DNA from: Alphaproteobacteria bacterium
GTDB lineage: Bacteria; Pseudomonadota; Alphaproteobacteria; Rhodobacterales; Rhodobacteraceae
Assembly: GCA_003331935.1 (NCBI GenBank)
Contig: QOQE01000003.1
Coordinates: 1 to 64,000, forward strand
Direction of reading: 5' to 3'
DNA length: 64,000 nt
The notes below the pieces were generated by a model, which worked only from the letters and a program-made list of their open reading frames with translations, was not told where the DNA came from and did no database searches. Within the stretch, counting starts at the first letter, position 1. Each line of letters begins with the position of its first letter. This document shows positions 6,865 through 52,474 of the stretch, in pieces. A program made the position numbers and the translations under genes.

Positions 6865-8160
6865 ATGAGAGACAATCTTACAGATTACATCGGTTTTTCG
6901 GCTATTCTAATTGGTTTAACAGTGGTTTTTGCGATCTTAGAGTATCCAACCTGGGCTTTCCCTGCAACGGTTTTCATGGGCTCTGTTATATTTTTTATGT
7001 ATTTAAAGTCTAACAAAATAGGCGAAAAGCACCATGTTAGTGACTTTAAGCAGGAAGCTATCAAGGAGGAGATTCAAGAAACGTATAACGCCAAGATCAC
7101 TTACAGGGTAATTAAAGGATTATTGAACATTCTTCCCTCACCCTATATTTTGATTGACAGAAATGGTAGGATAACATTTATAAATACAGAGGCTAAAGGG
7201 ATCGTTCCTGATTTTCATTCTGGCTCCCATATTTCGAACGTTTTCAGGTCGCCAATTTTTTTGGCCGCTATTGAAAATGCAATAAAAAAAGATAAGCAGG
7301 CAAAGCTGTCTTTTGAAATTCAAAGTCCGCAATTTCGTCAATTTAGTGCAAATATTTTTTTCATATCGTCAAATAAAATATCAAACAATTTCAACGACAT
7401 TTTTATCCAACTAACGGATGAGTCAACTCATATAAGAGCCGAAAAAATGCGGACGGATTTTGTTGCTAATGCTAGTCATGAGCTTAGAACTCCATTAGCG
7501 TCGATCACGGGCTTCATCGAAACATTACAAGGGCACGCCAAAAATGATCCGAAGGCAAAGGATCTTTTCCTGAATCTTATGGCCAAACAAGCTGGGAAAA
7601 TGGAACTTTTAATTAAAGATTTGATGTCTCTTTCCAAATTGGAAATACTGGAGACCAAACCTATTACGTCTGTCTGCTCATTAAGTGAACTCATTAGTGA
7701 TTTAACGCAGAGCTTACAACAATACGCACAAGACAATAATGTTAAGCTAGTTAATAATATTTCTAAAAAAATGATGCCAATAATGGGGGAAGTTGATCAA
7801 TTGCGACAACTATTCTCAAACTTAATAGAGAATGCTATTAAATACTCAGGATCTGAATGTGAAGTAAGAATTTTTCTGTCCAAAGAAAAACACAAAGGTA
7901 TGGTTGGCATAGTGATTGAGGATAACGGGGTTGGAATTTCTGCGGAACATTTACCTAGACTTACGGAGAGATTTTATAGAGCTAACACAAATTCTGAAGC
8001 TGAAAAAGATGGTACTGGTTTAGGATTGGCGATAGTGAAGCATATTTTAATTAGACACCGCGGAAAACTCCAGATTGACTCCAAGCTTGGTAAAGGCAGT
8101 CAATTTACTGCTTGGCTACCTAAAGGGAAATTAGGTAAACAGAATAAAAAAGAAAAATAA
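6865..8160 (+). CDS. phoR: Phosphate regulon sensor histidine kinase PhoR
   Basis: This 431-residue membrane kinase senses phosphate status through the Pst complex and PhoU, and phosphorylates PhoB. Two hydrophobic segments (about residues 8-50) anchor it. A PAS-like region follows (about 70-180), then the HisKA domain with the phospho-acceptor His205 in NASHELRTPLASITG. A HATPase domain carries the N-box NLIENAIKYS and the G-boxes DNGVGIS and GTGLGLAIVKHIL. The 'FIETLQG' segment after the H-box is usual for PhoR. It begins the run phoR-pstSCAB-phoU-phoB, an order common in alphaproteobacteria. The 60 bases after arsJ contain no convincing Pho box, so it may be read through from the arsenic genes or have its own weak promoter. 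Confidence 0.95.
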   Translation: MRDNLTDYIGFSAILIGLTVVFAILEYPTWAFPATVFMGSVIFFMYLKSNKIGEKHHVSDFKQEAIKEEIQETYNAKITYRVIKGLLNILPSPYILIDRNGRITFINTEAKGIVPDFHSGSHISNVFRSPIFLAAIENAIKKDKQAKLSFEIQSPQFRQFSANIFFISSNKISNNFNDIFIQLTDESTHIRAEKMRTDFVANASHELRTPLASITGFIETLQGHAKNDPKAKDLFLNLMAKQAGKMELLIKDLMSLSKLEILETKPITSVCSLSELISDLTQSLQQYAQDNNVKLVNNISKKMMPIMGEVDQLRQLFSNLIENAIKYSGSECEVRIFLSKEKHKGMVGIVIEDNGVGISAEHLPRLTERFYRANTNSEAEKDGTGLGLAIVKHILIRHRGKLQIDSKLGKGSQFTAWLPKGKLGKQNKKEK

Positions 8161-8200
8161 ATTGGATATTGTTAAAAAAATCATATTTTCAATATCTTAT

Positions 8201-8249
8201 TTGTTCATAAAGTTTTCATATTTTTGACATATTTAAGTGAGGATAGAAT
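8201..8249 (+). promoter_or_regulatory. pstS promoter region with three Pho-box units and a -10 element
   Basis: TTGTTCAT (8201-8208), GTTTTCAT (8212-8219) and TTTGACAT (8223-8230) repeat at exactly 11-base intervals, each with an AT-rich spacer. This is the direct-repeat design of PhoB sites, here with three units rather than two. A -10-like TAGAAT lies at 8244-8249, 13 bases after the last unit, the distance expected when PhoB replaces the -35 contact. The start codon of pstS is at 8301. Confidence 0.65.
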
Positions 8250-8300
8250 GAGAAGGTGCGCGTAAATCAGACGTTCTAGTTAACAAAGGAGTTGTCAATA

Positions 8301-9257
8301 ATGAACAATTTATTAAAATTTTTTACTGCTGCAATTGCAGCGACAGTTTTAAGTACGGGCTCGTTGATAGCCAGGGAAGGCGATCAAATATCTATCGTTG
8401 GATCTTCAACTGTTTTCCCATTCTCAACAATCGTTGCAGAGCGATTTGCGAAAAATACTGACTTTAAAGCCCCAGTTATAGAATCAACTGGAACGGGTGG
8501 TGGTGCAAAACTATTTTGTGCGGGCATCGGTCTTGATCATCCAGATGTAACCAACGCAAGTAGAGCAATGAAATCAAGCGAAAAAGAAACTTGTACTGCA
8601 AACGGTATAACGCCGGTTGAGTATATGATCGGCTTTGATGGAATAACCTTCTCAAACAGCAATAAAGCACAACAGTATTCTTTAACTAAGGAAGAAATTT
8701 TCAAAGCAGTGTCAGCTAAAATAATGTCTAATGGAAAAATGGTAGACAATGGCTACAAGAGATGGAGCGACATTAATCCGTCCTTGCCGAGCGTAAAGAT
8801 AGATGTGTTGGCTCCTCCACCATCTTCTGGTACACGAGACGCTTTTGTGGAGTTGGTCATGCACGACACCTGTAAGAAAGTTTACAAGATGAGTAAGGAT
8901 GATTACAAAGCCTCTTGTTCAGCTTTGAGAGAAGACGGTGCTGTTACCGAGGCAGGAGAAAATGACAACCTTATCATAGAAAAGCTTGCCGCTAATCAGG
9001 GCCGATTTGGTATTTTCGGATATTCATTTCTTGACCAAAATAAAGATAAGGTTCAAGGTTCCATAGTAAACGGCGTAGCACCATCAATGGAAACAATTGC
9101 TGATAGTTCGTACAAAGTTTCCCGGCCACTATTCTTTTACGTCAAAAAAGAGCACGTTGGGGTAGTGCCAGGACTTCAAGAGTTTGCTGACTACTTTATG
9201 AGCTTAACAGTCAGTGGTAGTCCCTTAGAAGCTGCTGGCCTTATTCCAAAGCCATAG
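8301..9257 (+). CDS. pstS: Periplasmic phosphate-binding protein PstS
   Basis: This 318-residue protein captures phosphate in the periplasm and delivers it to PstCA. The N-terminus is a signal peptide with a lysine, a hydrophobic core and a likely cut after LIA (residue 24). The mature protein starts with the typical ISIVGSSTVFPFS. The phosphate-contacting segments GTGGGAKLFC and PPPSSGTRDAFVELV are present. ATG 8301 is chosen because the Shine-Dalgarno AGGAG (8287-8291) lies nine bases upstream; an in-frame TTG at 8292 overlaps that site. It is the best-expressed gene expected in the operon, and a strong stem-loop follows it. The variant belongs to the PstS type common in marine alphaproteobacteria rather than the E. 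coli type. Confidence 0.95.
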   Translation: MNNLLKFFTAAIAATVLSTGSLIAREGDQISIVGSSTVFPFSTIVAERFAKNTDFKAPVIESTGTGGGAKLFCAGIGLDHPDVTNASRAMKSSEKETCTANGITPVEYMIGFDGITFSNSNKAQQYSLTKEEIFKAVSAKIMSNGKMVDNGYKRWSDINPSLPSVKIDVLAPPPSSGTRDAFVELVMHDTCKKVYKMSKDDYKASCSALREDGAVTEAGENDNLIIEKLAANQGRFGIFGYSFLDQNKDKVQGSIVNGVAPSMETIADSSYKVSRPLFFYVKKEHVGVVPGLQEFADYFMSLTVSGSPLEAAGLIPKP

Positions 9258-9280
9258 TGTACTAACCTATTTACTTAGAC

Positions 9281-9310
9281 CATAAAGCCGATTACCATAT
9301 CGGCTTTATG
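9281..9310 (+). other. Stem-loop between pstS and pstC
   Basis: CATAAAGCCGAT and ATCGGCTTTATG form a perfect 12-base-pair stem around a six-base loop. No T-run follows, so it is unlikely to be a simple terminator. In binding-protein operons such hairpins protect the upstream mRNA from 3' decay, letting the binding protein be made in excess over the permease; that role is inferred here. Confidence 0.7.
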
Positions 9311-9343
9311 GCACATTAAATTACAGACAGGATTTTCACTTCA

Positions 9344-10726
9344 ATGACCCTTCCTATAAGTTTCGTTTTTTTTGTGCTTCTGGGGTTATCTGTATATTTT
9401 TATTATCACGCAAAAAGCAGTATTGTGAGAAAGGCGGCATTTCTTGGAAAGCGTTCAAAGGCACTTCCGTCTCACTATGGACAACAATCCTTTCTCTGGG
9501 CTTTCATACCCTCTTTCCTAATATTATTGGTTCTAACAATCGGTGGGCCAAACTATATAGATCAAATTTTCTACAATAAAATTCAAGAATTAAATCCCAC
9601 GTTTAATGAATCTTTTGTAAGCCTTATCTTGGCAAAAGTTATTAATGTTTCAAATGGTAAGATTTCCACTGATGAAGAAACAATAATAATTCTTGCAAAG
9701 GACTATAAAATTGCTTTCGAGCAACTGCACTTTTATCGTGGATTAGTGGTCATTTTATGCGCTGCGTTATTGGGAATGATTATTTCCTATAGACAGAAAC
9801 CTGGCTCAAACGCAAGGGAACAGGTTGAAAAATTTATAGTTAATATTTTCTTCGCTTCAGCAGTTATTGCTATTTTTACAACAGTAGCCATTATATTAAG
9901 TCTATTTTTTGAAGCGTTGAGATTTTTTAATTTATATAATTTTTTTGATTTTATATTTGGACTTCATTGGGCGCCAAATGTAGCTATAAGAACGGATCAA
10001 GTGGCTGCTGAGGGCTCATTTGGGATGATACCTGTGCTGTTGGGTACATTACTAATTTCTTTCATAGCGATGTGTGTGGCTATCCCAATCGGCCTTTTCT
10101 CTGCAATATATCTTGCAGAGTTTGCTACGCCTAAAATTCGAGATTTCGTAAAACCAACTCTTGAGATTTTAGCTGGTATTCCAACTGTAGTTTACGGATA
10201 TTTTGCCGCTTTGACTGCTGCTCCATTTTTCAGAGATATTGGTTTTTCACTGGGTTTAGACGTTTCATCTGAGTCAGCTATAGCAGCCGGTGCTGTAATG
10301 GGTATAATGATTATTCCTTTTATTTCCTCTTTATCCGACGACGTTATTAGAGCTGTTCCGCAAAGCTTGCGAGACGGTTCAATGGGGCTTGGTGCCACAA
10401 AAGCTGAAACAATTTACATAGTGATACTGCCCGCTGCTATTCCTGGTTTGGTTGGCGCTGTTCTCTTGGCAGTTAGTCGTGCTATCGGAGAGACAATGAT
10501 TGTTGTTATGGCCGCGGGATTAAGCGCAAATTTGACAGTCAATCCATTAGACTCCGTAACCACCGTCACAGTTCAAATTGTTTCACTCCTTACTGGAGAT
10601 ACAGAGTTTGACGACATCAAAACCTTGTCAGCCTTTGGCCTAGGGCTGGCACTTTTCTTTTTCACTTTGTTGCTTAATATTTTTGCACTCTCTATATCGC
10701 GGAGGTTAGCTGAAAGATATGACTAA
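9344..10726 (+). CDS. pstC: Phosphate ABC transporter permease PstC
   Basis: This 460-residue inner-membrane subunit forms the phosphate channel with PstA. It is longer than E. coli PstC (about 320) because it has an N-terminal extension with two hydrophobic segments (about residues 5-75) and a soluble insert, a form common in alphaproteobacteria. The C-terminal half carries the usual six helices and the cytoplasmic EAA-type loop, seen as SLRDGSMGLGATKAETIYIV, which docks to PstB. The [13 protein letters not shown]-like tail ends at a TAA that overlaps the pstA ATG by eight bases, so translation is probably coupled. Confidence 0.95.
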   Translation: MTLPISFVFFVLLGLSVYFYYHAKSSIVRKAAFLGKRSKALPSHYGQQSFLWAFIPSFLILLVLTIGGPNYIDQIFYNKIQELNPTFNESFVSLILAKVINVSNGKISTDEETIIILAKDYKIAFEQLHFYRGLVVILCAALLGMIISYRQKPGSNAREQVEKFIVNIFFASAVIAIFTTVAIILSLFFEALRFFNLYNFFDFIFGLHWAPNVAIRTDQVAAEGSFGMIPVLLGTLLISFIAMCVAIPIGLFSAIYLAEFATPKIRDFVKPTLEILAGIPTVVYGYFAALTAAPFFRDIGFSLGLDVSSESAIAAGAVMGIMIIPFISSLSDDVIRAVPQSLRDGSMGLGATKAETIYIVILPAAIPGLVGAVLLAVSRAIGETMIVVMAAGLSANLTVNPLDSVTTVTVQIVSLLTGDTEFDDIKTLSAFGLGLALFFFTLLLNIFALSISRRLAERYD

Positions 10727-11984
10727 AACTAGTATTAAATCGAGAAGAGCCCGCGAGACCAGATTAAAAGCTTATGGAATTGCCTCTATCAGCTTCGCAC
10801 TAATTATGCTAGCAACCCTACTTATTTCAATAGGACTTAATGGCTACAGTGCTCTGCAACAGGCTTATTTTAAGGTCGAGGTTTCCATCGATGTTGAAAA
10901 GTTCATTGACGAAAGTGGAGCTCTTAACAACAAAAAGATGAATCTGTTTAACTGGGATAGTTTGGTGCAAAGCGCACTAATAGAAATGTTTCCTGCGGTA
11001 AAAGATAGAGATGAAAAAAAGGAACTGTTTGCTATCATTTCCGCTAATTCTGGATACGATCTAAAGGAAACTGTTAAAAGTAATCCGTTGCGTAATGGTT
11101 CTCAAAATCTCGCAGTTTGGCTTCATTTATCTGATGATGCAGATCAATATTTGAAAGGTAGATTAAGTATTGAAATTCCAGAGGAAGATAGAAGAATTAG
11201 TGATAAGCAAATAGCGTGGGTTGATAGCTTGGTAGAGAGAGATATTGCAAAACTTAAATTCAATAAAACATTTTTCACATCTGCTGACTCCAGAGAGCCA
11301 GAGAGCGCTGGAATTCTGGGGTCAGTTATTGGTTCAGCTTTAACCCTTTTTGTTACAATAATATTTGCACTTCCACTGGCTGTTATGGCCGCGATATATC
11401 TCGAGTATTTTGCAAAACCTGGAAGGATTACAGACTTTATTGAAGTAAATGTTAACAATTTAGCAGCAGTCCCTTCTATAGTATTTGGATTGCTGGGTTT
11501 ATCAGTTTTTCTTTCCACATTTGGTCTTCCAAGATCAGCACCTCTTGTCGGTGGTCTTGTGTTAGGTTTGATGACCCTTCCTACGATAATTATCGCCTCA
11601 AGAGCATCTATACGCTCAATCCCTCCATCTATTAGAGAAGCCGCTCTGGGACTGGGTGCTTCAAAAATGCAAGCTGCACTTCATCATGTTTTGCCTTTAG
11701 CTGCACCTGGAATTTTAACAGGAACAATAATTGGTATGGCACAAGCATTGGGTGAGACAGCACCTCTTTTAATGATTGGTATGGTAGCGTTTATAATTGA
11801 TATTCCAACTACCTTTACGTCTAGTGCCACAGCCATGCCAGTTCAAATATATATGTGGTCTGACAGCGCAGAAAGAGCGTTTTATGAAAGGAGTTCTTTA
11901 GCTATACTATTCTTGGTAGCGTTTTTGATCTCAATGAATCTGTTAGCTGTTGTATTGAGGAAAAAATTTGAGAAGAAATGGTGA
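10719..11984 (+). CDS. pstA: Phosphate ABC transporter permease PstA
   Basis: This 421-residue membrane protein is the partner of PstC. One N-terminal membrane segment (about residues 20-45) is followed by a periplasmic domain of about 130 residues absent in E. coli PstA but usual for the alphaproteobacterial form. Five further helices follow, with the docking loop [20 protein letters not shown]. The start overlaps the end of pstC and the gene stops five bases before pstB, which shows tight operon packing. It is complete, with no unusual residues. Confidence 0.95.
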
Positions 11985-11988
11985 AATA

Positions 11989-12747
11989 ATGACTAGCAAA
12001 TTTAGAACAAAGAATGTTGAGGTTTATTACAGCGACAAAAAAGCGATAAGAGATATAAGCCTCAATATAGAGAAAAATATAGTTACGGCGCTTATAGGTC
12101 CTTCGGGGTGTGGAAAATCAACTTTTTTGCGTTGTCTAAATAGAATGAACGATGTCATTGAAAATTGTTCAATAAAAGGGAGTATTCATCTTGATGAGCA
12201 AGATATTTATGGGCCAGATATAGATCCTGTCGAACTCAGAGCACGCGTTGGAATGGTTTTTCAAAAACCAAATCCGTTTCCGAAGTCTATTTTTGACAAC
12301 ATTGCCTACGGTCCAAGAATTCATGGCTTGGCTAGCAGTGACAATGAGTTGAAAGATATAGTTTACAACAGTTTAGAAAAAGCAGGACTTATAGATGAAG
12401 TCAAAGATAGGTTAAATGATCAAGCGACTGGGCTTTCAGGGGGTCAGCAACAGAGAATTTGTATTGCCAGAGCAATCGCCGTAAGCCCTGAAGTAATCTT
12501 GATGGACGAACCCTGCTCGGCCCTCGACCCTATAGCTACCGCAAAAATTGAGGAGCTTATGAATGAACTATGTGAGTCTTATACCATAATTATTGTAACC
12601 CATTCAATGCAACAAGCAGCACGGGTATCAAAGAAAACAGCCTTTTTTCATTTAGGAGACTTAATTGAATATAACGACACAGATAAAATTTTTACTCAAC
12701 CCGAAAATGAAAAAACACAAGACTACATTACCGGAAGATTTGGATGA
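11989..12747 (+). CDS. pstB: Phosphate ABC transporter ATP-binding protein PstB
   Basis: This 252-residue ATPase drives PstCA. Walker A is GPSGCGKST (37-45). The signature is LSGGQQQR, and Walker B with D-loop is [12 protein letters not shown], followed by the His-switch [11 protein letters not shown]. The phosphate-family feature [20 protein letters not shown] is also present. The ATG at 11989 is preferred to an upstream in-frame TTG at 11968 inside pstA because it gives the standard N-terminus and lies five bases after the pstA stop. It also relays transporter state to PhoR through PhoU. Confidence 0.96.
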
Positions 12748-12759
12748 AAAGGATAAAGA

Positions 12760-13443
12760 ATGACTTTACATATTTCATCAGCATATAACGAAGACTTAAT
12801 TCACATTAACAGCAAAATCGTGGAGATGGGTGGCTTGTGCGAGCAGATTATAGATAACACTAACCTTTCGATAAAGGATAATAACGTTCAACTTGCTGAA
12901 AAGGCTATTCTTTTAGACGAGAAGCTTGATTTTCTAGAAAATGAAATCAACGAGTCCGTGATAAAGGCAATTGCTTTGAGACAACCTGTTGCCGATGATT
13001 TACGGGTTTTATTCTCTGCAATAAAGATTTCTGGAGCTTTTGAAAGGGTCGGTGATCTTTGCAAAAATATAGCAAAGCGCACCCAACTTCTAACCGATGA
13101 AAACCAGATAGAAATAAGAAGAGAAATATTCGAGCTAGGTGAAAAGGTAAAAAAACAGCTCACTCGATCCATTAACTCATATACCGATAAAGATACTAAG
13201 TTAGCTACAAAAGTGTGGAAAAATGATTATAAAGTTGATCAGATGTATACCGATCTTTTTAATAATCTTCTCGTATATTTAAAAAAGAAAAAACGAGTAG
13301 CCTCTGGCTCCCACCTTATGATTATAGCAAAAAATTATGAGAGAATTGGAGATCATGCTACTCATATTGGAGAAATGACACACTTTGCGATAACAGGTGA
13401 GAATTTAGTTGCTGTTCGACCAAAAGTTAATCTACCCGTATAG
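12760..13443 (+). CDS. phoU: Phosphate transport regulator PhoU
   Basis: This 227-residue, all-helical protein has two PhoU repeats (about residues 15-105 and 118-212). It links the Pst transporter to PhoR and keeps the Pho regulon off when phosphate is plentiful. The metal-binding E/DxxxD-type motifs of each repeat can be seen in GAFERVGDLCKNIAKR and YERIGDHATHIGEM. It starts 12 bases after pstB and ends 14 bases before phoB. The length and the order pstB-phoU-phoB are typical. Confidence 0.95.
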   Translation: MTLHISSAYNEDLIHINSKIVEMGGLCEQIIDNTNLSIKDNNVQLAEKAILLDEKLDFLENEINESVIKAIALRQPVADDLRVLFSAIKISGAFERVGDLCKNIAKRTQLLTDENQIEIRREIFELGEKVKKQLTRSINSYTDKDTKLATKVWKNDYKVDQMYTDLFNNLLVYLKKKKRVASGSHLMIIAKNYERIGDHATHIGEMTHFAITGENLVAVRPKVNLPV

Positions 13444-13457
13444 AGGTTATTTTAATT

Positions 13458-14153
13458 ATGAAACAAAAAGTTTTGGTTGTTGAAGATGATAAGGACATTC
13501 AAGAAATTATAGAATATAATTTTACTAGCGAAGGCTACGAAGTAATTACATGCTCAGATGGCGAAGATGCCGTCGACCTTATTAGGCATGAGACACCAGA
13601 TCTTGTTATTTTGGATTGGATGCTCCCAAATCTATCTGGCTCGGAAATACTTAGGCAAGTACGTTCAAGCAAGAAAATAAGAAAAACACCTATCATAATG
13701 CTCACAGCGCGCACTGAAGAAATTGATAAATTGAAAGCTTTTGACACTGGAGCAGATGATTATATAACCAAGCCTTTTTCTAATGCAGAGTTAATAGCGA
13801 GAACAAAGGCATTACTTAGGCGAAGTATTGACAACAATGATTCTGACACTTTAGTCTTTCATGATATTGAACTAAATCGCGATAAAAAAAGAGTGTTTAG
13901 AGGTACAAAGGAAATAAAATTAGGGCCAGTGGAATTTAAGTTACTTGAAGTTTTTCTAATGAGGCCAGGACAGGTATTTAACAGGGAACAGTTGTTAGAT
14001 AAAGTCTGGGGCAATGATATATACGTCGAGGAAAGAACTGTAGATGTCCATGTGGGACGTTTACGGAGAGCGCTCAACAGGGGTAAATTGAAAAAGGATC
14101 CGATACGAACGGTAAGAAGTGCCGGTTATTCACTTAATGAGAACTATAGTTAG
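13458..14153 (+). CDS. phoB: Phosphate regulon response regulator PhoB
   Basis: This 231-residue OmpR-family regulator binds Pho boxes when phosphorylated by PhoR. The receiver domain (1-120) has the acidic pair ED at 9-10, the phospho-acceptor Asp53 in VILDWMLPN, and the switch lysine in YITKPFS. The C-terminal winged helix (about 130-230) includes VEERTVDVHVGRLRRAL, the recognition-helix region. Its three likely targets in this window are the 11-base repeat sites before phnC, gap-arsJ and pstS. It ends seven bases before the convergent glycosyltransferase gene. Confidence 0.96.
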   Translation: MKQKVLVVEDDKDIQEIIEYNFTSEGYEVITCSDGEDAVDLIRHETPDLVILDWMLPNLSGSEILRQVRSSKKIRKTPIIMLTARTEEIDKLKAFDTGADDYITKPFSNAELIARTKALLRRSIDNNDSDTLVFHDIELNRDKKRVFRGTKEIKLGPVEFKLLEVFLMRPGQVFNREQLLDKVWGNDIYVEERTVDVHVGRLRRALNRGKLKKDPIRTVRSAGYSLNENYS

Positions 14154-32959: not shown

Positions 32960-33037
32960 TTCAGCAAATTTTTTGATTAGTGCATTAAACTATTATACTA
33001 TAATGCTTGGAAATGATTACTAGTTATCACAAAAAAA

Positions 33038-33217
33038 ATGATTGAAACCGAAAAAAAAATAATTCAGGCGCAACAAGCTTTAGAAGAGGCTAAGAAAAGA
33101 CGAGAAGAAGAAAAAGCCAAAATTCACAAAAGACCTGTTGAATTAAAAGGGCGTGGCGGTCTAGAACCTACCAGATTTGGTGATTGGGAGGTTAAGGGTA
33201 TAACTTCAGACTTTTAG
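33038..33217 (+). CDS. SDHAF4/DUF1674-like succinate dehydrogenase assembly factor (59 residues)
   Basis: This small gene runs from ATG 33038 to TAG 33217. The first half is a charged helix rich in Glu and Lys (about 5-30). The second half is the DUF1674 signature: KRPVELKGRGGLEPTRFGDW followed by EVKGITSDF. In mitochondria the homologue SDHAF4 helps the flavinated succinate dehydrogenase subunit reach the complex and prevents oxidative side reactions; bacterial members are assumed to act likewise. Its position next to rsmB is the usual alphaproteobacterial location. No paired sdh genes are in the window. Confidence 0.9.
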   Translation: MIETEKKIIQAQQALEEAKKRREEEKAKIHKRPVELKGRGGLEPTRFGDWEVKGITSDF

Positions 33218-33287
33218 ACTATAACTTTATTGTTGTCTTAAAACAAAAATTCTAGTATAACTCGGCCATTATTAGGTTTCAATTATT

Positions 33288-42842: not shown

Positions 42843-43450
42843 TTCAGTAGCGTCTCATTCTTTAGTTTGCGGTAAAGGTCGATAACATCCTTCTGTGTCT
42901 CTGATAGCGATTTGTCAGTGTTTATAATAAAGTCAGCTCTTTTTAACTTGTCTTCTTCACTCAATTGATTTCGCTTTATGAGTTTATAGTCTTTCTCAGT
43001 CATATTTTTTCTTCTTAGAACTCGAGTTTGTTGAGTTATCTCTGAAGCCGTTACCAAAACAATGGCATCAAAATTTTTCTCTTGGTTCTTTTCAAAAAGG
43101 AGGGGAATGTCATAAATAATTATGGGGTCGTTTTTATATAGTTCCGCAAAAGAGTTTCTCGACTTACGTAAAAGGGGGTGTACTATCTCCTCTATTTTTT
43201 TCAATATGGAGTTGTCTTTGTGAATTAAATTTCTTAGTTTTTTTTTATCGACACCTGTTTTTGTTAAAACGCTCGGGAAATCTTTTATAAATATTTTCGT
43301 AGCCGCTCCATTTTTTGAGTAAAGCGAATTGACCTCGTTATCAGCACACCATACAGGGACACCAAATTTTCGAAACATGTTTGATACTGTTGTTTTTCCC
43401 ATGGCTATTGAACCAGTTAAGCCAAGAATAAGTCTAGGGTTTTTATTCAA
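42839..43450 (-). CDS. coaE: Dephospho-CoA kinase
   Basis: This 203-residue P-loop kinase adds the 3'-phosphate in the last step of coenzyme A synthesis. The N-terminus LILGLTGSIAMGKTTVSNMF carries the P-loop (about 9-20). WCADNEVNSLY and the lid region VLRRKNMTEKDYK are typical. The length is normal. It overlaps both neighbours by a few bases (aroE by eight, dnaQ by four). Confidence 0.95.
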   Translation of the reverse strand: MNKNPRLILGLTGSIAMGKTTVSNMFRKFGVPVWCADNEVNSLYSKNGAATKIFIKDFPSVLTKTGVDKKKLRNLIHKDNSILKKIEEIVHPLLRKSRNSFAELYKNDPIIIYDIPLLFEKNQEKNFDAIVLVTASEITQQTRVLRRKNMTEKDYKLIKRNQLSEEDKLKRADFIINTDKSLSETQKDVIDLYRKLKNETLLK

Positions 43451-44288
43451 TTATAAACTTTCTGATATGATCGTCTATAACAGGTGTTTTTTGGAACCAG
43501 TGTTCAAAACCGGGAACTGCTTGGTTTATTAACATACCTATACCACCGACTGTTTTTAAATTAAGTTTCTTGGCTTCTTTTAAAAGGTCTGTGACCAATG
43601 GGTTGTACACGATGTCGACCACCAGTGTCGTCTTTTTCGCTCTCGATATAGGTTGAGAAAAGTCTGGCTGTCCGACCATACCCATAGATGTTGCATTAAT
43701 TATTATATCTACTTCCCCTACCATTTCTGGAGCATTTCGCCAATCCACCACCGACACTTTAGCGCCTAGGTTTTCAGATATTATTTGAGCCTTAGATCGA
43801 GTTCTATTCGATATTCCTACTTCCTTTATACCGTTTGATATTAGCGCTGATGCTATAGCTCTAGAGGAACCACCCGCTCCATAAATTATCGCTCTCTTAT
43901 CATAGAAATCAAAATCTGGTATCTCATCCATTATATTTTGAATAAAGCCATATCCATCTGTATTATCAGCATGAATCTTTCCACTTTTACTAAAGTATAG
44001 TGTGTTTGCAGCCCCAATTAGCGATGCTCTGTCAGTTACAGAATCTGCATAAGTCAAAACGTTTGTCTTATGGGGAATAGTTACATTAACTCCTTTAAAA
44101 CCAAGGTCAATTAACCCTTCTATAGAGCTTTTGAGCTTTTCAGTAGTTACAGAGAAAGGAACATAGAAACCGTTTATTTTGTATTTTGTTAACCAATAGT
44201 TGTGTAACTTAGGTGATTTACTATGAGATATCGGATGCCCAATTACTCCAGCAAGATATGGGGCATTGTCGATTGTTATTTTATCCAT
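43443..44288 (-). CDS. aroE: Shikimate dehydrogenase
   Basis: This 281-residue NADPH enzyme reduces dehydroshikimate in the aromatic amino acid pathway. The substrate site contains GHPISHSKSPKLHNYW and NVTIPHK with the catalytic lysine, and ANTDGYGF with the catalytic aspartate. The Rossmann motif is IYGAGGSSRAI. The C-terminal VGGIGMLINQAVPGFEHWF is canonical. It is the first gene left of the putative origin; its first codons (TTATCCATA on the plus strand) differ from a DnaA box by a single base. Confidence 0.96.
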   Translation of the reverse strand: MDKITIDNAPYLAGVIGHPISHSKSPKLHNYWLTKYKINGFYVPFSVTTEKLKSSIEGLIDLGFKGVNVTIPHKTNVLTYADSVTDRASLIGAANTLYFSKSGKIHADNTDGYGFIQNIMDEIPDFDFYDKRAIIYGAGGSSRAIASALISNGIKEVGISNRTRSKAQIISENLGAKVSVVDWRNAPEMVGEVDIIINATSMGMVGQPDFSQPISRAKKTTLVVDIVYNPLVTDLLKEAKKLNLKTVGGIGMLINQAVPGFEHWFQKTPVIDDHIRKFIIE

Positions 44289-44373
44289 AGCACTATGTTA
44301 ATCAAAGTAGAGTTCTGTTAATAACCATTAATAATGTAATTATATATAAATAGTTATTATAAACAGCAATATT

Positions 44374-44382
44374 TTTTCCACA
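44374..44382 (+). promoter_or_regulatory. DnaA box TTTTCCACA
   Basis: The nine bases fit the relaxed DnaA consensus TTWTNCACA. It lies directly right of the AT-rich run in the aroE-hemE gap. Confidence 0.6.
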
Positions 44383-44490
44383 AACTAACTCACATTTACA
44401 TAGTTATATAAAAAACTCTCTATGATGTTGAAAAACTATAAATTATTAAGTTAAATTAGAGGCTTACATATTAACTTTTAATAAAAAGTG

Positions 44491-44499
44491 TGTGGATAA
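44491..44499 (-). promoter_or_regulatory. DnaA box TTATCCACA (perfect)
   Basis: The plus strand reads TGTGGATAA, the exact complement of the highest-affinity DnaA box. It is 68 bases before the hemE start codon. Confidence 0.75.
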
Positions 44500-44566
44500 G
44501 TATTCTATTTACATTAAACCCACATTTTTTAGTGTATATACTACAAACAACATATATATATATATT

Positions 44567-45598
44567 ATGAATCTGTTTTTAGACTGTGTAAAAGGGTTAC
44601 CTGTAAAAAGACCGCCCGTCTGGTTTATGCGTCAAGCTGGCAGATACTTATCTGAATATAGAGATACAAGAAAAAAGGCCGGTTCCTTTTTAAACCTCTG
44701 CTATAATTCTAATCTAGCTACAGAAGTCACACTCCAACCCATAGATAAATTTGGGTTTGATGCTGCCATCCTATTTGCTGACATTTTATTAATATTGGAT
44801 GCTCTTGGAGTGAACGTGCAATTTGTTGAGGGCCAAGGACCGTTATTAGACCCTGTAAAAAGTAAGAAAGATATAAACCTTCTTAAAACTACAGAGAAAA
44901 TACATGACAAGTTATCTCCAGTCTATGACACTGTGAAAAAACTAAAACAGCATTTACCAAAAGGAGTTCCTTTAATAGGTTTTGCTGGAGCACCTTGGAC
45001 CCTAGCAACATATCTTATAAATGGAAGAGGCGAGCAGGGATCGTTAACAGCAAAAAAGTTTATTATTGCGAACAATCCGGAGTTCGAAGAGATTATAAAA
45101 TTGCTTACTGAAGCCACAGTAGAATATATCTTAATGCAAATTAAGTCGGGAGCCGATGTAATAAAGATTTTTGACAGCTGGGCTGGAGCGTTAAACGCGG
45201 ATATGGTCCGAAGTTATTCTTTAAATCCAATAAAAACAATTGTAACTGAAGTAAAAAAACAGTTTCCAGAAATACCATTTATAGTATTTCCTAGATCTGT
45301 AAATACTATATATAGTGATTTTTCCGAAGTAAAAGAGTTTGATGTTCTGGCGGTTGATCAATTTTTGGATCGTAAATGGATAGCTGAAAATATACAACCA
45401 AAAAAAGTAATTCAGGGGAATTTGGATCCTCTATTTCTAACTCAAGATAAAGAGAATCTTCTTAGTGAGCTTAAAAGGGTTACTGAAGATTTTAAAAAAT
45501 ATCCTTATGTCTTTAATCTAGGACATGGAATTACCCCAGATGCTAGAGTAGAAAATGTTACTCTAGTGGTTGATTATATAAAAGAGTTAAAATTATAG
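44567..45598 (+). CDS. hemE: Uroporphyrinogen decarboxylase
   Basis: This 343-residue enzyme removes four carboxyl groups from uroporphyrinogen III to give coproporphyrinogen III. The start is placed at ATG 44567, which gives MNLFLDCVKGLPVKRPPVWF and the active-site MRQAGRYL. An upstream in-frame ATG at 44492 would add 25 unusual residues that overlap the DnaA box and TA tract. Active-site segments FADILLILDALG and FAGAPWTLATYLI are intact, and the end VENVTLVVDYIKEL is normal. It begins the rightward gene run from the putative origin. Confidence 0.96.
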   Translation: MNLFLDCVKGLPVKRPPVWFMRQAGRYLSEYRDTRKKAGSFLNLCYNSNLATEVTLQPIDKFGFDAAILFADILLILDALGVNVQFVEGQGPLLDPVKSKKDINLLKTTEKIHDKLSPVYDTVKKLKQHLPKGVPLIGFAGAPWTLATYLINGRGEQGSLTAKKFIIANNPEFEEIIKLLTEATVEYILMQIKSGADVIKIFDSWAGALNADMVRSYSLNPIKTIVTEVKKQFPEIPFIVFPRSVNTIYSDFSEVKEFDVLAVDQFLDRKWIAENIQPKKVIQGNLDPLFLTQDKENLLSELKRVTEDFKKYPYVFNLGHGITPDARVENVTLVVDYIKELKL

Positions 45599-45695: not shown

Positions 45696-46979
45696 ATGTT
45701 TGATATAGATAATACGAAGCAACTGTCATTAGCAGAGTTAAAAACTCAAAGTCCTAGTGATCTATTAAAGCTAGCAGAAAAGCTTGAGATAGAGAATGCA
45801 TCGTCTATGAGAAAAGGCGATATGATGTTCTCAATATTGAAGGACATGGCGGAAGATGGAGTAGAAATATCAGGTGATGGTGTTTTAGAGGTTTTACAAG
45901 ATGGTTTTGGCTTTCTCAGATCAACTGATGCCAATTATCTACCTGGACCAGACGATATTTACGTAAGTCCCAGTAAAATAAAAAAGTTCTCATTAAGGAC
46001 CGGAGATACAGTTGAAGGTGTAATTAGAGCACCCAAGGAAGGTGAAAGATATTTCGGATTAGTAAAAGTAACAAAAATAAATTTTCTCGAAATGGAAAAG
46101 GCGAAGCATAAAATACATTTTGATAATCTTACCCCACTATATCCAGATGAAAGAATAGGATTGGAGTTAAATGATCCAACAATTAAGGATAAATCAGCAA
46201 GAGTAATTGATCTAGTCGCACCAATAGGGAAAGGTCAAAGATCGTTAATAGTAGCACCCCCTAGAACAGGGAAAACAGTGATATTACAGAATATCGCGCA
46301 CTCGATCGAGAAAAATCATCCAGAGTGTTTTCTAATAGTCCTTTTAGTAGATGAAAGGCCAGAGGAAGTCACAGATATGCAGAGATCAGTAAAAGGCGAA
46401 GTTATTTCTTCAACTTTTGATGAACCAGCGACTAGACACGTTGCTGTTGCTGAGATGGTGATTGAAAAAGCAAAAAGATTAGTTGAGCATAAAAGGGATG
46501 TGGTGATACTTCTTGATTCTATCACTAGACTGGGTAGGGCTTATAATACTGTCGTCCCATCCTCAGGCAAGGTGCTAACAGGGGGTGTTGATGCAAACGC
46601 TTTACAAAGACCCAAGAGATTCTTCGGTGCCGCTAGAAATATAGAAGAGGGCGGATCTTTAACTATAATTGCAACTGCCTTGATTGATACAGGTAGTAGA
46701 ATGGATGAGGTTATTTTTGAAGAGTTTAAAGGTACTGGTAATTCGGAACTTATCTTAGACAGAAAAGTGGCTGATAAGAGAGTTTTTCCAGCGATAGACA
46801 TACTGAAATCTGGCACACGGAAGGAAGACTTACTAATAGACAAAAAAGAGTTAACAAAGATTTTTGTTCTTAGAAGGATTCTTAATCCTATGGGAACAAC
46901 AGATGCTGTAGAGTTCCTCCTAGAGAAGCTTAAACAAACAAAAACAAACAGTGATTTTTTCGATTCTATGAACACCTGA
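45696..46979 (+). CDS. rho: Transcription termination factor Rho
   Basis: This 427-residue hexameric helicase ends transcription at rut sites. The N-terminal RNA-binding domain includes [13 protein letters not shown] and [19 protein letters not shown]. The ATPase loop is APPRTGKT (about 187-194). The Q-loop [11 protein letters not shown] and the R-loop [20 protein letters not shown] are intact. There are 97 bases between hemE and rho with no clear feature. Other alphaproteobacteria often have hemJ or hemH in this gap. Confidence 0.97.
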
Positions 46980-46987
46980 GATAGCTA

Positions 46988-48286
46988 ATGACAGAAACGA
47001 TCTTCGCGCTTTCGACTGTTCCTGGCCTATCAGCTATTTCAATAATTAGAATATCCGGACCTAGTGCTTTTTCAGTTATAAGGAAAATTACAAAAGGTAA
47101 AATCCCAAAAAGTCGTTATGCTTCTTTAAAAAAGATCCGTTGGAAGGGCGAAGTTATCGATCAATGTATTGTTCTCACCTTTAAAAGAAATGAAAGCTAT
47201 ACGGGAGAACAAACTGTAGAAATCCATTGCCATGGTAGCATTGCTGTTATTGAAAAGTTAGTTTCAGTATTAGTTGAATGTGGATCAGTATTAAAGTTAA
47301 GGCCTGCAGAGGAGGGAGAGTTTACTCGGCAAGCTTTCTATAACGGGAAGATGGACCTCATACAGGTGGAAGGACTTTCTGACTTGTTAAGAGCTGAGAC
47401 AGAGGCTCAGAGAAGGTTGTCCCTTGACCAATTAGAAGGGGGATTTTCAAAAAAAATACATACATGGAAGGATAAAATTACCACTATTTTAGCATTTTTA
47501 GAGGCTGGAATAGATTTCTCTGATCAAGATTTGGGGCAAATCCAGGTTTTAGACAGTATTTCAGACCTTCTCGATTCACTTAAAAGAGAACTAAATGTCT
47601 ACCAGGATATCAAATCGATAAAAAATGGGCTAGATATTGCTATAATTGGGCCACCAAATGTCGGTAAATCAACGTTTATAAATTATTTGGCAAAACGCGA
47701 GGTTTCATTGACTTCAAGGATAGCTGGTACCACACGAGACATCATTGAGTCCAAGATTCAATTAAAGGGTGTATTTGTTACCTTTTTAGACACGGCAGGG
47801 CTAAGGGAAACAAAGGATACAATAGAAAAAAAAGGAATAGCAAAGTTAAAGAAGAGGTTAAAAACCACAATTTTCAATATTTTCCTAATTAATAACGAGT
47901 CTGATCTTAAAAAGATAGGGGTAAAGGTAGGTCGTGATGATATTGTATTTAAAGCCAAAGCTGATAAAGGTAACCCAACATCTTTCAGGGGCATATCAGG
48001 TAAGACAGGTTTTGGAGTTAAGGAGGCAATTGATTTAATTGAAACAAGAATCCCAAAATTCAACATCAGCGACGGGTTGATAAGCACCCATCGCCAGAAA
48101 ATGAAAGTAAATGAGTTAATCATATTACTATCGGACTTAAGAGATGATGTAGAAACTGGTTTAGAGATTGAACTTTTGGCTGAAAAAACAAGACATGCCC
48201 AAAAATTACTTGAGGAGTTAATAGGAAAAATAGACACAGAGGAAGTTTTGGGTATTATATTTAAAAATTTCTGTATAGGGAAGTAG
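46988..48286 (+). CDS. mnmE: tRNA modification GTPase MnmE
   Basis: This 432-residue GTPase works with MnmG to put carboxymethylaminomethyl-type groups on wobble uridines. The tetrahydrofolate-binding N-terminal domain (1-118) contains [20 protein letters not shown]. The G domain has GPPNVGKST (221-229) and [10 protein letters not shown]. The C-terminal motif FCIGK with the functional cysteine is present. It starts eight bases after rho and its stop abuts the first parS site. Confidence 0.96.
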
Positions 48287-48301
48287 GTTTCACGTGAAAC
48301 A
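48286..48301 (+). promoter_or_regulatory. parS: parS centromere site at the mnmG start
   Basis: GGTTTCACGTGAAACA matches the 16-base parS consensus TGTTTCACGTGAAACA at 15 of 16 positions, with only the outermost base different. It covers the stop-to-start junction of mnmE and mnmG, and its GTG (48294-48296) is the mnmG start codon. ParB encoded 3 kb away is the expected ligand. Confidence 0.9.
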
Positions 48302-50153
48302 TTTTTTTGATGTTATAGTTATTGGTGGTGGCCATGCTGGCTCAGAGGCGGCCTATGCGGTAGCAAGAGCGGGTGGAAGTGTGGGGCTTATAACAAAGAA
48401 AAAAGATCAAGTAGGAGTAATGTCATGTAATCCAGCAATAGGTGGGCTAGGAAAGGGTCATTTGGTGCGGGAAGTAGACGCTCTAGGTGGCTTAATGGGA
48501 GTAGCTGCTGATATATCAGGGATTCAATTTCGATTATTAAATAAGTCTAAGGGTCCGGCTGTTCAAGGACCAAGAACCCAGTCTGATAGAATTCTTTATA
48601 AGAATGCTGTGCAAAACATTTTATTTTTCAATCAGAACATCAAAATTATTGAGAGTGAAGCCACTGATTTGTATATCCAGAATGGTGCTGTTAGTGGAAT
48701 AGAGCTTGAAGATGGAACCAATATTAGCGGGGGTAGCGTTGTTTTGACAACAGGGACGTTTCTTAATGGCCTAATAAGAATTGGAGAGGAAAAAGTTAAT
48801 GCAGGTCGGGTAGGAGATTTTTCATCCACGAGGTTGGCAAAAAGAATAAAGGATATGGGTTTAAATATTGGAAGACTAAAAACGGGAACACCTGCAAGGC
48901 TATCTTCAAAAACCATAAACTGGGATATCTTAGAAACTCAGAAGGCGGATAAACAACCAACTCTTTTCTCCTTTCTTCATAAAAAACCTTTTCAGAGACA
49001 AATTACTTGTGGGATAACGTACACAAACAGGATTACCCATAACATTATACGCGACAACATTGAAAAGTCAGCTGTATTTAACGGGTCCATAACGTCGAAT
49101 GGGCCAAGATACTGTCCATCTATTGAGGATAAGGTTGTAAGGTTCTCAGATAAAGATGAGCATCAAGTTTTTTTGGAACCTGAAGGGTTAAGCGACGACA
49201 CGGTTTACCCAAACGGTATTTCAACATCGTTACCTAGAGGCATTCAGGAGAAGTATATTAAGTCTATTAAAGGATTGGAAAAGGTAAAAATCTTGAACTA
49301 CGGGTATGCTGTCGAATATGATTACGTTAACCCTAAAAGTTTAAAATCTTCTTTAGAGTTAAAAAACACAAGAGGACTTTTCCTCGCTGGTCAAATAAAC
49401 GGAACCACTGGTTATGAGGAGGCGGCCGCTCAGGGACTGCTTGCTGGAATAAATGCCTATCAATATGTAAAAAAAGAAGATCCTTTTATTTTAGATAGGT
49501 CTGAGGCCTACATGGGTGTGATGATAGATGATTTAGTAACAAGAGGGGTCATAGAGCCCTACAGAATGTTTACTTCTCGAGCGGAGTTTAGACTGAGTTT
49601 ACGGTGTGATAACGCGGATATTAGACTTACAAGGAAAGGCAATAAAGTAAGACTTGTGTCTAAAGCCAGGATCAATCTACTAGAGAAAAAGAGTAGCTCC
49701 ATAGAAAGGCTTACAGAGGCAACGATCTCACGGAAGTTTTCTAATATCGAGTTGAGCGATGTTGGAATAAACCAAAAAAAAGACGGAAAAAAAAGAACTT
49801 TTCGGGACGTGTTAGCGTTAAGCGGGATAAAAGATGAGCTTTTAAGAAAATTATGGAAAGGTTTTTATGATTTTGATTTAGACGTCCGTGAGTTTGTAAG
49901 AGCAGATGCGAAGTATAATTATTATATTGAAAGACAAAAAAGTGATGTCGATAGAATAAAGAAAAATATCAATACTTTAATTCCCGACGGAATTGATTTT
50001 AAAAATATAGAAGGGTTATCGGCAGAGTTAAAGTCCAAGTTGAGCAATTTAAACCCCCAACATATTCATGAAGCAAGTAAAATCGATGGGATGACACCCA
50101 GTGGGTTAATGTTACTAATATCAAAAATTAATTCTTATAAGAATATCGCTTGA
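48294..50153 (+). CDS. mnmG: tRNA uridine-5-carboxymethylaminomethyl modification enzyme MnmG
   Basis: This 619-residue FAD enzyme forms a complex with MnmE. The FAD-binding motif [12 protein letters not shown] is near the N-terminus (about 11-22). The NAD/cysteine region [14 protein letters not shown] and the domain with [16 protein letters not shown] are present. Start GTG 48294 sits inside a parS site, so ParB binding and mnmG initiation use the same bases. The order rho-mnmE-mnmG-rsmG-parA-parB is the classic near-origin set. The stop overlaps the rsmG start by four bases. Confidence 0.97.
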
Positions 50154-50770
50154 AAAAAACAGATGTTATTGAAAGCCTCAATGTTTCACGTGAAACAATT
50201 AACAGCTTTAGCGAGTATGAGACGATATTGTCTAAATGGAACCAGAAAATAAATCTTGTTTCACCAAAGACATTAGCTGATTTATGGGTTCGGCATTTTT
50301 TAGATTCTGGTCAAATAATTAACCACGTAGATGCATCAGGAAAAAAGTGGGTAGATGTAGGTGCGGGAGCCGGCTTTCCTGGGTTAGTAGTTGCGTTGTT
50401 GCTGAGGGATAGAAAAATAGACTGTGATATCGTTTTAGTTGAAAAAAACACGAGAAAAGTTTTTTTTCTTAATGAGGTTATTCGAAAGCTCAATTTAAAT
50501 GTAAAAGTTGTTAATAATAATGTCGATACAATTGAACCCTTAAACGCTGATATATTAACAGCAAGAGCGTTTTCTGAATTGAAAAATCTCATTGAATTAT
50601 CTGTCCGCCATCGAAAAGAGAGAGGTGTTAGTTTGTTTTTAAAGGGAGAAAATTATAGATTAGAGCTAGATAAAACTTTAAATTATTGGTTTTTTGATTA
50701 TGATATCTTTGATAGCCTAAGCAATTCCTCTGGGAAGATTATCAGAGTAAAAAAAATTTTTAAACGATAA
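50150..50770 (+). CDS. rsmG: 16S rRNA (guanine-527-N7) methyltransferase RsmG
   Basis: This 206-residue enzyme methylates G527 of 16S rRNA. The start is TTG 50150, overlapping the mnmG stop, and gives [20 protein letters not shown]-binding [16 protein letters not shown] and later [14 protein letters not shown] are typical. A parS site is embedded in codons for NVSRET, as in many bacteria. An AGGAGG at 50770-50775 at its end serves the next gene, parA. Confidence 0.95.
50182..50197 (+). promoter_or_regulatory. parS: parS centromere site inside rsmG
   Basis: TGTTTCACGTGAAACA is a perfect 16-base parS palindrome. It is read in frame within rsmG as V-S-R-E-T. It lies 1.9 kb from the first parS and about 0.6 kb before parA, matching origin-proximal parS placement. 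Confidence 0.97.
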
Positions 50771-50781: not shown

Positions 50782-51585
50782 ATCTCTAGTCCTTCAATTA
50801 TATCTATTGCCAACCAAAAGGGAGGGGTGGGTAAAACTACAACTGCAATAAATCTATCTACAGCTTTGGCTGCCGTGAATAACAAAGTTTTGATAATGGA
50901 TTTAGACGCTCAAGGAAACGCTTCAACTGGTTTAGGGGTCCCAAAAGACGACCGGGAAAAATCTACTTATGACTTGCTGACCGGCAAGGCAGGTTTAAAG
51001 GACGTGATCAAGGATACCAAAATTCCATCACTCTTCATTGCTCCAGCATCAACAGATTTATCATCTATTGACGTTGATCTTTATGAGGAGAAAGGAAGGG
51101 TCGTTAAACTCCGTGATTGGTTTGCAAAAGAAAAATTGGATTTTGATTATATTTTGATTGATTGTCCACCGTCACTCAATCTTCTCACGATAAATTCAAT
51201 GGTAGCATCAAATTCTGTTTTAGTGCCTTTACAGGCCGAATTTTTTGCGCTTGAGGGATTAAGTCAATTGTTACTAACAGTTAGAGATATCAGATCAAAA
51301 ATTAACCAAGACTTGAAAATCCACGGTATAGTTTTGACTATGTTCGATAAACGAAACAATTTATCAGAACAAATTGAAGAAGATGTAAGAGGAAATCTTG
51401 GAGAGTTGGTCTATGACACTGTTATACCTAGAAACGTTAGAATAAGTGAAGCACCTTCTTTTTCTATGCCAGCTTTAATTTATGATCATAAGTGTTCTGG
51501 CGCCATCGCTTATCAAAAGTTGGCAGCAGAATTTCTAAAAAGAGAGGACCACTTTGAGAGAAGGAAAAATGAGTTCAAAAAATGA
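50782..51585 (+). CDS. parA: Chromosome-partitioning ATPase ParA, apparent ATC start
   Basis: ParA drives origin segregation with ParB and parS. The first standard start in this frame is GTG 50827, but that would begin inside the ATPase P-loop and lose SIISIANQKGG. The frame is open upstream to a stop with no ATG, GTG or TTG. AGGAGG (50770-50775) is followed six bases later by ATC (50782-50784), giving a natural N-terminus of 14 residues before KGGVGKT (13-19, the deviant Walker A). The resulting 267 residues are typical. ILIDCPPSLNLL and PRNVRISEAPSF complete the family pattern. An ATG at 50777 is out of frame and only one base from the Shine-Dalgarno. A one-base assembly deletion is the main alternative. 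Confidence 0.9.
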   Translation: MSSPSIISIANQKGGVGKTTTAINLSTALAAVNNKVLIMDLDAQGNASTGLGVPKDDREKSTYDLLTGKAGLKDVIKDTKIPSLFIAPASTDLSSIDVDLYEEKGRVVKLRDWFAKEKLDFDYILIDCPPSLNLLTINSMVASNSVLVPLQAEFFALEGLSQLLLTVRDIRSKINQDLKIHGIVLTMFDKRNNLSEQIEEDVRGNLGELVYDTVIPRNVRISEAPSFSMPALIYDHKCSGAIAYQKLAAEFLKREDHFERRKNEFKK

Positions 51586-52474
51586 ACGTAAAAAAGGTTT
51601 AGGTAGAGGTCTGTCATCCTTTTTAGACGTTGACAGCTTTGGGGAGATTGTTGACAAAAAAAGAGATGAAAAAAAAATTACTAGTGAACCTAATAGCCCT
51701 ACCAATCTCCCAATAGAACATATCATCCCAAACCAAAATCAACCAAGAAAAGACTTTGCACAAGATGAATTAAGTAGCCTTGCCTCATCAATAAGAGAAA
51801 CAGGAATAATACAACCTATACTTGTAAGAAAAAATGATGATTCATATGAGATAGTAGCTGGGGAAAGGCGCTGGAGGGCTGCACAAATAGCAAATATACA
51901 TGAAGTTCCAGTGGTAATTAAAGAGTTAACGAACGAAGAGGTGGTAAAGATTTCCATCATTGAAAATATTCAGCGGGTAGACCTAAATCCTATAGAAGAA
52001 GCTAACTCATATAATCAGCTAATTAAAGAGTTCGGTTACACCCAAGAAAAAGTTGCTACATCTCTGGGAAAATCGAGAAGTTATATCACCAACGCGTTAA
52101 GACTCCTTTCGCTTCCAAAGAGCATAATTAAGCATTTACAAGAAGGCAAACTATCAAGTGGGCACGCGAGAGCTCTCGTTGGAGTAGCAAACTCGGAAAA
52201 TTTGGCAAGAAAAATAATGGATGAGAATCTATCGGTGAGAGATATAGAAAATATCGTTAAAAAGGGAATTACACAAAGTGATGATAGAATTAAAAAAGGA
52301 ACATCAACTAAAAAAGACGTGGACACTATAAATTTAGAGCAAGACATAAAAGCTGCCTTAGGATTAAAAACCATTATTGATCATAACGAAAATTCAGGGG
52401 GAGGTTGTATAATAGTTAAATACAAAGACTTAGAACAATTGGACATGTTCTGCTCAAAGATTATGAAAATGTGA
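51569..52474 (+). CDS. parB: Chromosome-partitioning protein ParB
   Basis: This 301-residue CTP-dependent clamp loads on parS and spreads. The N-terminus KKGLGRGLSSFL binds ParA. The CTP site contains GERRWRAAQIA and ENIQRVDLNPIEEA. The helix-turn-helix YTQEKVATSLGKSRSYITNALRL recognises parS, and a C-terminal dimer domain ends the protein. ATG 51569 is chosen: AAGGA is about five bases upstream, while an in-frame TTG at 51554 lacks a ribosome site. It overlaps parA by 17 bases. Confidence 0.96.
   Translation: MSSKNERKKGLGRGLSSFLDVDSFGEIVDKKRDEKKITSEPNSPTNLPIEHIIPNQNQPRKDFAQDELSSLASSIRETGIIQPILVRKNDDSYEIVAGERRWRAAQIANIHEVPVVIKELTNEEVVKISIIENIQRVDLNPIEEANSYNQLIKEFGYTQEKVATSLGKSRSYITNALRLLSLPKSIIKHLQEGKLSSGHARALVGVANSENLARKIMDENLSVRDIENIVKKGITQSDDRIKKGTSTKKDVDTINLEQDIKAALGLKTIIDHNENSGGGCIIVKYKDLEQLDMFCSKIMKM

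Follow-up and report, generated by a model that had tools for sequence, protein, structure and literature searches.

Where does replication of this alphaproteobacterial chromosome begin, and does the short spacer between aroE and hemE serve as its origin? Origins lying in a hemE cluster are described among Alphaproteobacteria for Caulobacter (Cori), Rickettsia prowazekii and Wolbachia (PMC1914354), and the original prediction placed oriC of the present genome in the aroE-hemE gap. We analysed a window of 64,000 bases, comprising bases 1-64000 of contig C22 (84,567 bases), from a genome of 1.56 Mb in 28 contigs that is 90% complete. The prediction is supported by DnaA boxes shared within the genus and found at the same slot in eight other genera, by a GC-skew origin placed ~4-5 kb from the slot in two relatives, by the proximity of parS and parAB, and by a dnaA region free of boxes. 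We put the probability that the gap is the chromosomal replication origin at about 90%.

The genes on both sides point outward, as had been predicted, and diverge from a gap of 278 bases (Table 1). To the right, hemE is followed by rho, mnmE, mnmG, rsmG, parA, parB and hemW; to the left, beyond aroE, lie coaE, dnaQ, secB, timA, a Smr-domain gene, hslUV and the rimP-nusA-infB genes. Mechanical calling of open reading frames takes as the hemE start a GTG that falls, at 44492, within the perfect DnaA box; same-genus gaps, once aligned, favour the ATG at 44567 instead. The two parS sites and parAB are all located within 8 kb of the gap, again in agreement with the prediction. With up to three mismatches allowed, the window contains these 2 parS sites against 0.45 expected, a number reached by 9 of 100 shuffled sequences. 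A parS pair spaced by ~1.9 kb occurs beside parAB in all 13 relatives scanned, five from the genus and eight from other genera. The parB match crosses one in-frame TAA in two genomes of the comparison (G008:C7:79890-80792 and G021:C21:19070-19966). An Rfam scan and a tRNA scan of the 64-kb window returned no matches.

Table 1. Features of the proposed origin and its surroundings, in window coordinates
Feature	Position	Strand	Remark
Proposed oriC, aroE-hemE intergenic gap, 278 bases	44289..44566		20.9% GC
aroE (shikimate dehydrogenase)	43443..44288	-	
hemE (uroporphyrinogen decarboxylase)	44567..45598	+	
rho, mnmE, mnmG, rsmG	45696..50770	+	
parA	50827..51585	+	
parB	51554..52474	+	
parS, 1 mismatch	48286..48301		
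parS, perfect	50182..50197		
DnaA box TTATCCATA, 1 mismatch	44281..44289	+	overlaps aroE start codon
DnaA box TTTTCCACA, 1 mismatch	44374..44382	+	
DnaA box TTATCCACA, perfect	44491..44499	-	
Least stable 50 bases of 84 kb	44327..44376		candidate unwinding region
TATATACTAC and AT repeat	44535..44565		directly 5' of hemE
ACCCACATTTTT	44518..44529	+	aligns with TATCCCCATTTTT of relatives
Two TGTTAAT elements	44296-44302 and 44316-44322		conserved blocks
GTTATTATAAAC	44353..44364	-	conserved block; TATAAT on - strand

The AT-richness claimed for the gap is confirmed: it holds the least stable sequence of the 84 kb at lengths of 250 and 50 bases, and ranks second at a length of 100 bases. Among the DnaA boxes proposed earlier, three stand, one perfect and two with a single mismatch. 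The fourth, the 9-mer TTATAAACA at 44357-44365, has two mismatches and does not rise above background; since the 84 kb holds 364 sites with up to two mismatches, we give it no weight. The three boxes with up to one mismatch fall within 300 bases and form the densest cluster of the 84 kb, where no other place reaches more than two. Taken over its full length, the window shows no enrichment in DnaA boxes (22 against 17.8 expected, with 16 of 100 shuffled sequences reaching 22), and perfect boxes number 17 genome-wide against 30 for a reversed control pattern. Among these 17, the one in the gap is alone in having two further boxes (up to one mismatch) within 300 bases; 15 of the other 16 were covered by fourteen stretches, and the last, at 63874, lies inside the window.

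Conservation of the gap was followed in 22 genomes of the genus, 18 of which gave a hemE match and 16 the sequence upstream of it. In all 16 species with readable sequence aroE adjoins hemE across the gap, and the gaps can be aligned, spanning 286-301 bases when counted from the first box. Two of the genus loci come from the single-cell assemblies AG-897-D05 and AG-911-I18. Together the 16 gaps contain 30 DnaA boxes with up to one mismatch, against a mean of 1.8 and a maximum of 7 in 200 shuffles; the species are related, and G003 and G016 are nearly identical at the gap, so that the 16 gaps are not independent cases. The perfect box TTATCCACA is found in 10 of the 16 gaps, eight times at the aligned position and twice elsewhere (G008 and G021), and is absent from the other six. 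The TTATCCATA box is exact in 11 of 16 gaps, and coding constraint may account for its conservation. At 44374 this species alone in the alignment reads TTTTCCACA, where most relatives read TTTTCAACA.

Several blocks of the alignment are steadier than TTATCCACA: TATCCAT, which spans the aroE start codon, TGTTRAT, TTATTATAAAC, the ACA and CACA elements and CCCCATTTTT. Some of these may reflect promoter or coding constraint. At the first TGTTAAT element three relatives read TGTTGATAA, a DnaA box with one mismatch on the - strand. The hexamer TCCCCA, described in Caulobacter as the W-box, a weak DnaA site (PMC4285127), is present in 14 of 16 same-genus gaps against 0.5 in shuffles, and is missing from this species. 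The GTTATTATAAAC block is a possible candidate for the -10 element of an aroE promoter, although our promoter scan did not detect its TATAAT. The AT-rich stretch directly before hemE could be a second unwinding region or the hemE promoter. No site with up to one mismatch to WATCAANNNNTTR, which we take to be the IHF consensus, was found in the gap.

If the boxes mark an origin, are they tied to hemE? We read the locus in eight other genera of the family (G022, G023, G024, G025, G028, G031, G034 and G036), and in all of them the cluster aroE ... rho-mnmE-mnmG-rsmG-parA-parB is unchanged. The interval between aroE and rho contains maf (PF02545) in all eight and ppsR in three (G022, G025 and G036). 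There follows a largely noncoding gap of 264-412 bases, the limits of which we set from open frames, and past it, in seven of the eight (in G023 it was not found), a UPF0093 gene (PF03653) that we take to be hemJ. These slot gaps contain 21 DnaA boxes against 0.86 in shuffles (maximum 5). The 300 bases upstream of hemE in 11 genomes where this gene has moved, a control DNA richer in GC (49-70%) than the slot gaps, contain one box in total. The boxes therefore belong to the slot and not to hemE.

The gene hemE itself is at the slot in only one of these eight genera, G025. Among 15 family genomes from other genera, parB was found in 14, and in the 14 genera having both genes the distance between hemE and parB is at most 10 kb in one, hemE being away from parB in the other 13. 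The rule that the alphaproteobacterial origin lies next to hemE, on which the prediction had leaned, therefore fails in this family. Several genomes of more distant families (e.g. G037, G045, G048 and G050) have ppsR next to hemE in the vicinity of parB, so a slot containing hemE is probably the ancestral state, from which the gene was moved away in most of the family. In the present genus the slot is too short to accommodate maf, ppsR or hemJ; ppsR (COG1806, PF03618) was found in none of the 22 genus genomes, and nine of the 22, this genome not among them, gave a Maf-family gene. The family is a clean natural experiment, with a fixed slot and shifting neighbours. The slot persists as hemE, ppsR, maf and hemJ are gained or lost around it, so hemE is not a reliable origin marker in this family, and a position next to hemE should not by itself be used to call alphaproteobacterial origins.

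Compared with the hemE-cluster origins of Caulobacter, Rickettsia and Wolbachia, the gap is similar in being an AT-rich sequence beside hemE with few DnaA boxes, in having parAB and parS close by, and in the W-box hexamer of its same-genus counterparts. It differs in its other neighbour, which is aroE and not ppsR. The perfect box is of the E. coli type, in place of the G-boxes of Caulobacter.

GC skew gives a less precise answer. A cumulative minimum had been expected at the gap; within the window the raw minimum lies not at 44 kb but at ~33 kb, at the start of the rimP-nusA-infB-hslVU block. Raw skew is confounded by gene strand, and we therefore estimated the effects of strand and side jointly at four-fold sites. 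Two relatives, G024 and G034, have a complete or near-complete main contig, from which 20-kb stretches were sampled (28 and 26, respectively); the skew at four-fold sites of long open frames was fitted on gene strand and replichore with free origin and terminus. The best origin is at 3,472,600 in G024, with the gap at 3,477,600, and at 1,176,300 in G034, with the gap at 1,181,300. Placing the origin at the gap costs 2.9 log units in G024 and 9.9 in G034, against 100 and 86.5 at the moved hemE. On a finer scan the optimum falls 4-5 kb to the rho side of the gap in G024 and 4 kb to the aroE side in G034; in the latter genome the penalty is 11.0 units at the gap and 7.8 at -10 kb. The gap lies between the two optima and coincides with neither. 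Swapping origin and terminus yields mirror solutions (e.g. an origin at 1.46 or 1.62 Mb in G024) that by construction fit nearly equally well; these were set aside by assuming a G-rich leading strand.

The genus is represented by draft genomes, and its skew was pooled over six species and 844 genes. After strand correction the pooled skew shifts across the gap with a coefficient of 0.094 (bootstrap 0.074-0.123), and none of 500 circular shifts gave a change as large. The best breakpoint is at -10 kb, upstream on the aroE side, with a gain of 40.8 against 31.8 at the gap, and breakpoints at -24 and from -15 to -8 kb are within two units of the best. When this genome is left out, the best breakpoint is at -24 kb (37.8 against 30.9 at the gap); taken alone, this genome is nearly uninformative, its gain being 1.3 for a breakpoint at the gap and 3.8 for one at -11 kb. 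The genes between -4.2 and 0 kb do not show left-arm skew. The skew check proposed with the prediction is not borne out in the window; the two relatives place the origin ~4-5 kb from the slot, and in the genus the gap fits less well than the point upstream. Among our results, this offset speaks most strongly against an origin located exactly in the gap. GC skew backs the neighbourhood, does not resolve the gap and within the genus favours a point upstream.

An origin displaced upstream by anything from a few to 25 kb, such as one between rsmB and rimP (32960-33285), with the aroE-hemE gap merely near it, would account for the pooled breakpoint and for the raw window minimum, which coincides with the divergence of rsmB and rimP. 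In G034, too, the gap is not a better fit than positions from -10 to -12 kb (penalty of 11.0 against 7.8-9.0). However, the region from 24.6 to 38.6 kb, including the rsmB-rimP gap, is free of DnaA boxes at up to one mismatch. The block of rsmB and rimP-nusA-infB is at that place in the four other same-genus species searched, but in G024 and G034 the searched stretches next to the slot gave no match to rsmB, rimP, nusA or infB, and these two genomes still put the origin ~4-5 kb from the aroE-rho slot. In G024, moreover, origins placed at -5 kb or farther out on the aroE side cost 16-41 log units. A shift of this kind can stem from one long co-directional operon, and the offset could be explained by such a block together with poor resolution near the origin; a skew shift can span a large region (PMC1914354). 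We consider an upstream origin unlikely.

It is less likely still that the gap is merely a two-way promoter region for aroE and hemE, in which the DnaA boxes regulate transcription. The genes are divergent, the - strand TATAAT and TATATACTAC before hemE are conserved, and DnaA has a role in transcription in Caulobacter as well (PMC4468827). The boxes, however, remain with the aroE-maf ... rho-parAB slot after hemE has left, and the moved hemE genes of 11 genomes have a single box upstream. The promoter scan gave 5 hits against 4.1 in shuffles (sd 1.4), which is not a clear excess, and both the skew and parS indicate the neighbourhood of the slot. Promoter and origin roles can coexist in the gap.

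In many bacteria the origin lies at dnaA. Here a canonical dnaA is present on contig C15 (PF00308, E 1.2e-68), and the C-terminal region of its product carries GGRDHTTV, presumably the DnaA signature. An origin at this gene would follow the general pattern of other bacteria, but is hardly credible here: the region C15:3324-7809, which comprises dnaA with 2.1 kb of preceding sequence and the beginning of dnaN, lacks DnaA boxes at up to one mismatch, and the skew of two relatives indicates the slot. In two alphaproteobacterial orders, to which this genome may or may not belong, dnaA is reported not to be kept near ori (PMC8116508). A better box cluster at another site, which would have spoken against the prediction, was thus found neither in the 84 kb nor around dnaA.

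In agreement with the prediction, and unlike Cori of Caulobacter, the gap contains no TTAA-N7-TTAA motif, the CtrA site; one such motif occurs in 2 of 16 same-genus gaps. A TTAA-N6-TTAA at 44318 was rejected as a CtrA site: it is unconserved in the genus, and CtrA was not found. The CtrA model (NF045991) is matched at cut-off in none of the 22 genus genomes and in 12 of 15 family members from other genera (counts from per-genome rows and tallies). The remaining three comprise G027, with a partial match of 207.8 bits, and two genomes without a match near the cut-off, G029 and G035. ChpT (PF10090) follows the same pattern, with 0 of 22 against 14 of 15. Completeness of the genus genomes is 58-91% (mean 75%), which makes chance gaps a very unlikely cause of both absences. 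The sole regulator found in this genome with an OmpR-type DNA-binding domain, at 13458-14153, is PhoB and not CtrA: it reaches 305.7 bits with TIGR02154 (cut-off 296.2) and 160 of 350 with the CtrA model.

Of the 22 genus genomes, 15 gave a match to GcrA and 14 to a RAMA domain of the kind present in CcrM, about what is expected of a universal gene at the mean completeness; the RAMA proteins are putative CcrM. Since neither CtrA nor ChpT was found in the genus, CtrA does not appear to gate this origin, and the corresponding suggestion of the original prediction is strengthened. Loss of ctrA is not new in kind. Granulibacter and Pelagibacter, with which the comparison concerns the missing ctrA gene, are reported to have no ctrA ortholog, and CcrM and GcrA are present in group D of the same study (PMC2877005). 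According to PMC4468827, origins outside Caulobacter, Rickettsia possibly excepted, do not show CtrA sites. Among the titles listed by literature searches on CtrA loss, none dealt with this genus. The locus is very probably an origin of the ordinary alphaproteobacterial kind, in which one neighbour has changed and CtrA is missing.

At an oriC, DnaA binds strong boxes, fills weak ones and melts AT-rich DNA. Laid over the observed boxes, AT-richness, conservation, position, parS sites and nearby skew change, this established biology suggests that DnaA would bind the strong box at 44491 and the weaker sites at 44281, at 44374 and near 44296 and 44518. It would then oligomerise and melt the AT-rich DNA at 44327-44376 or 44535-44565, the helicase would be loaded in both directions, and ParB on the two parS sites would segregate the new origins. 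By analogy, the strong box could play the part of a G-box, the help of which the weak W-boxes of Caulobacter need (PMC4468827). Tentatively, this whole genus of small genomes may have dropped the CtrA-ChpT relay, retained by most of the family, and kept GcrA and CcrM, leaving a stripped origin in which one strong DnaA box, movable or replaceable between species, acts with nearly fixed weak W-box-like sites and DnaA alone, free of competition from CtrA, sets the timing; we regard this fuller scenario as possible but rather doubtful.

A likely origin fixed for a genus of draft genomes would allow growth to be estimated from metagenome coverage (peak-to-trough). The genus-wide absence of CtrA and ChpT beside relatives having both offers a route to what replication control by CtrA is for. 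As a separate observation, the phoB gene closes a single run at 6865-14153 of the window, comprising a histidine kinase, a PBP-like gene of the phosphate-binding type, two permease genes, phoU and phoB, and this run is situated ~30 kb from the proposed origin.
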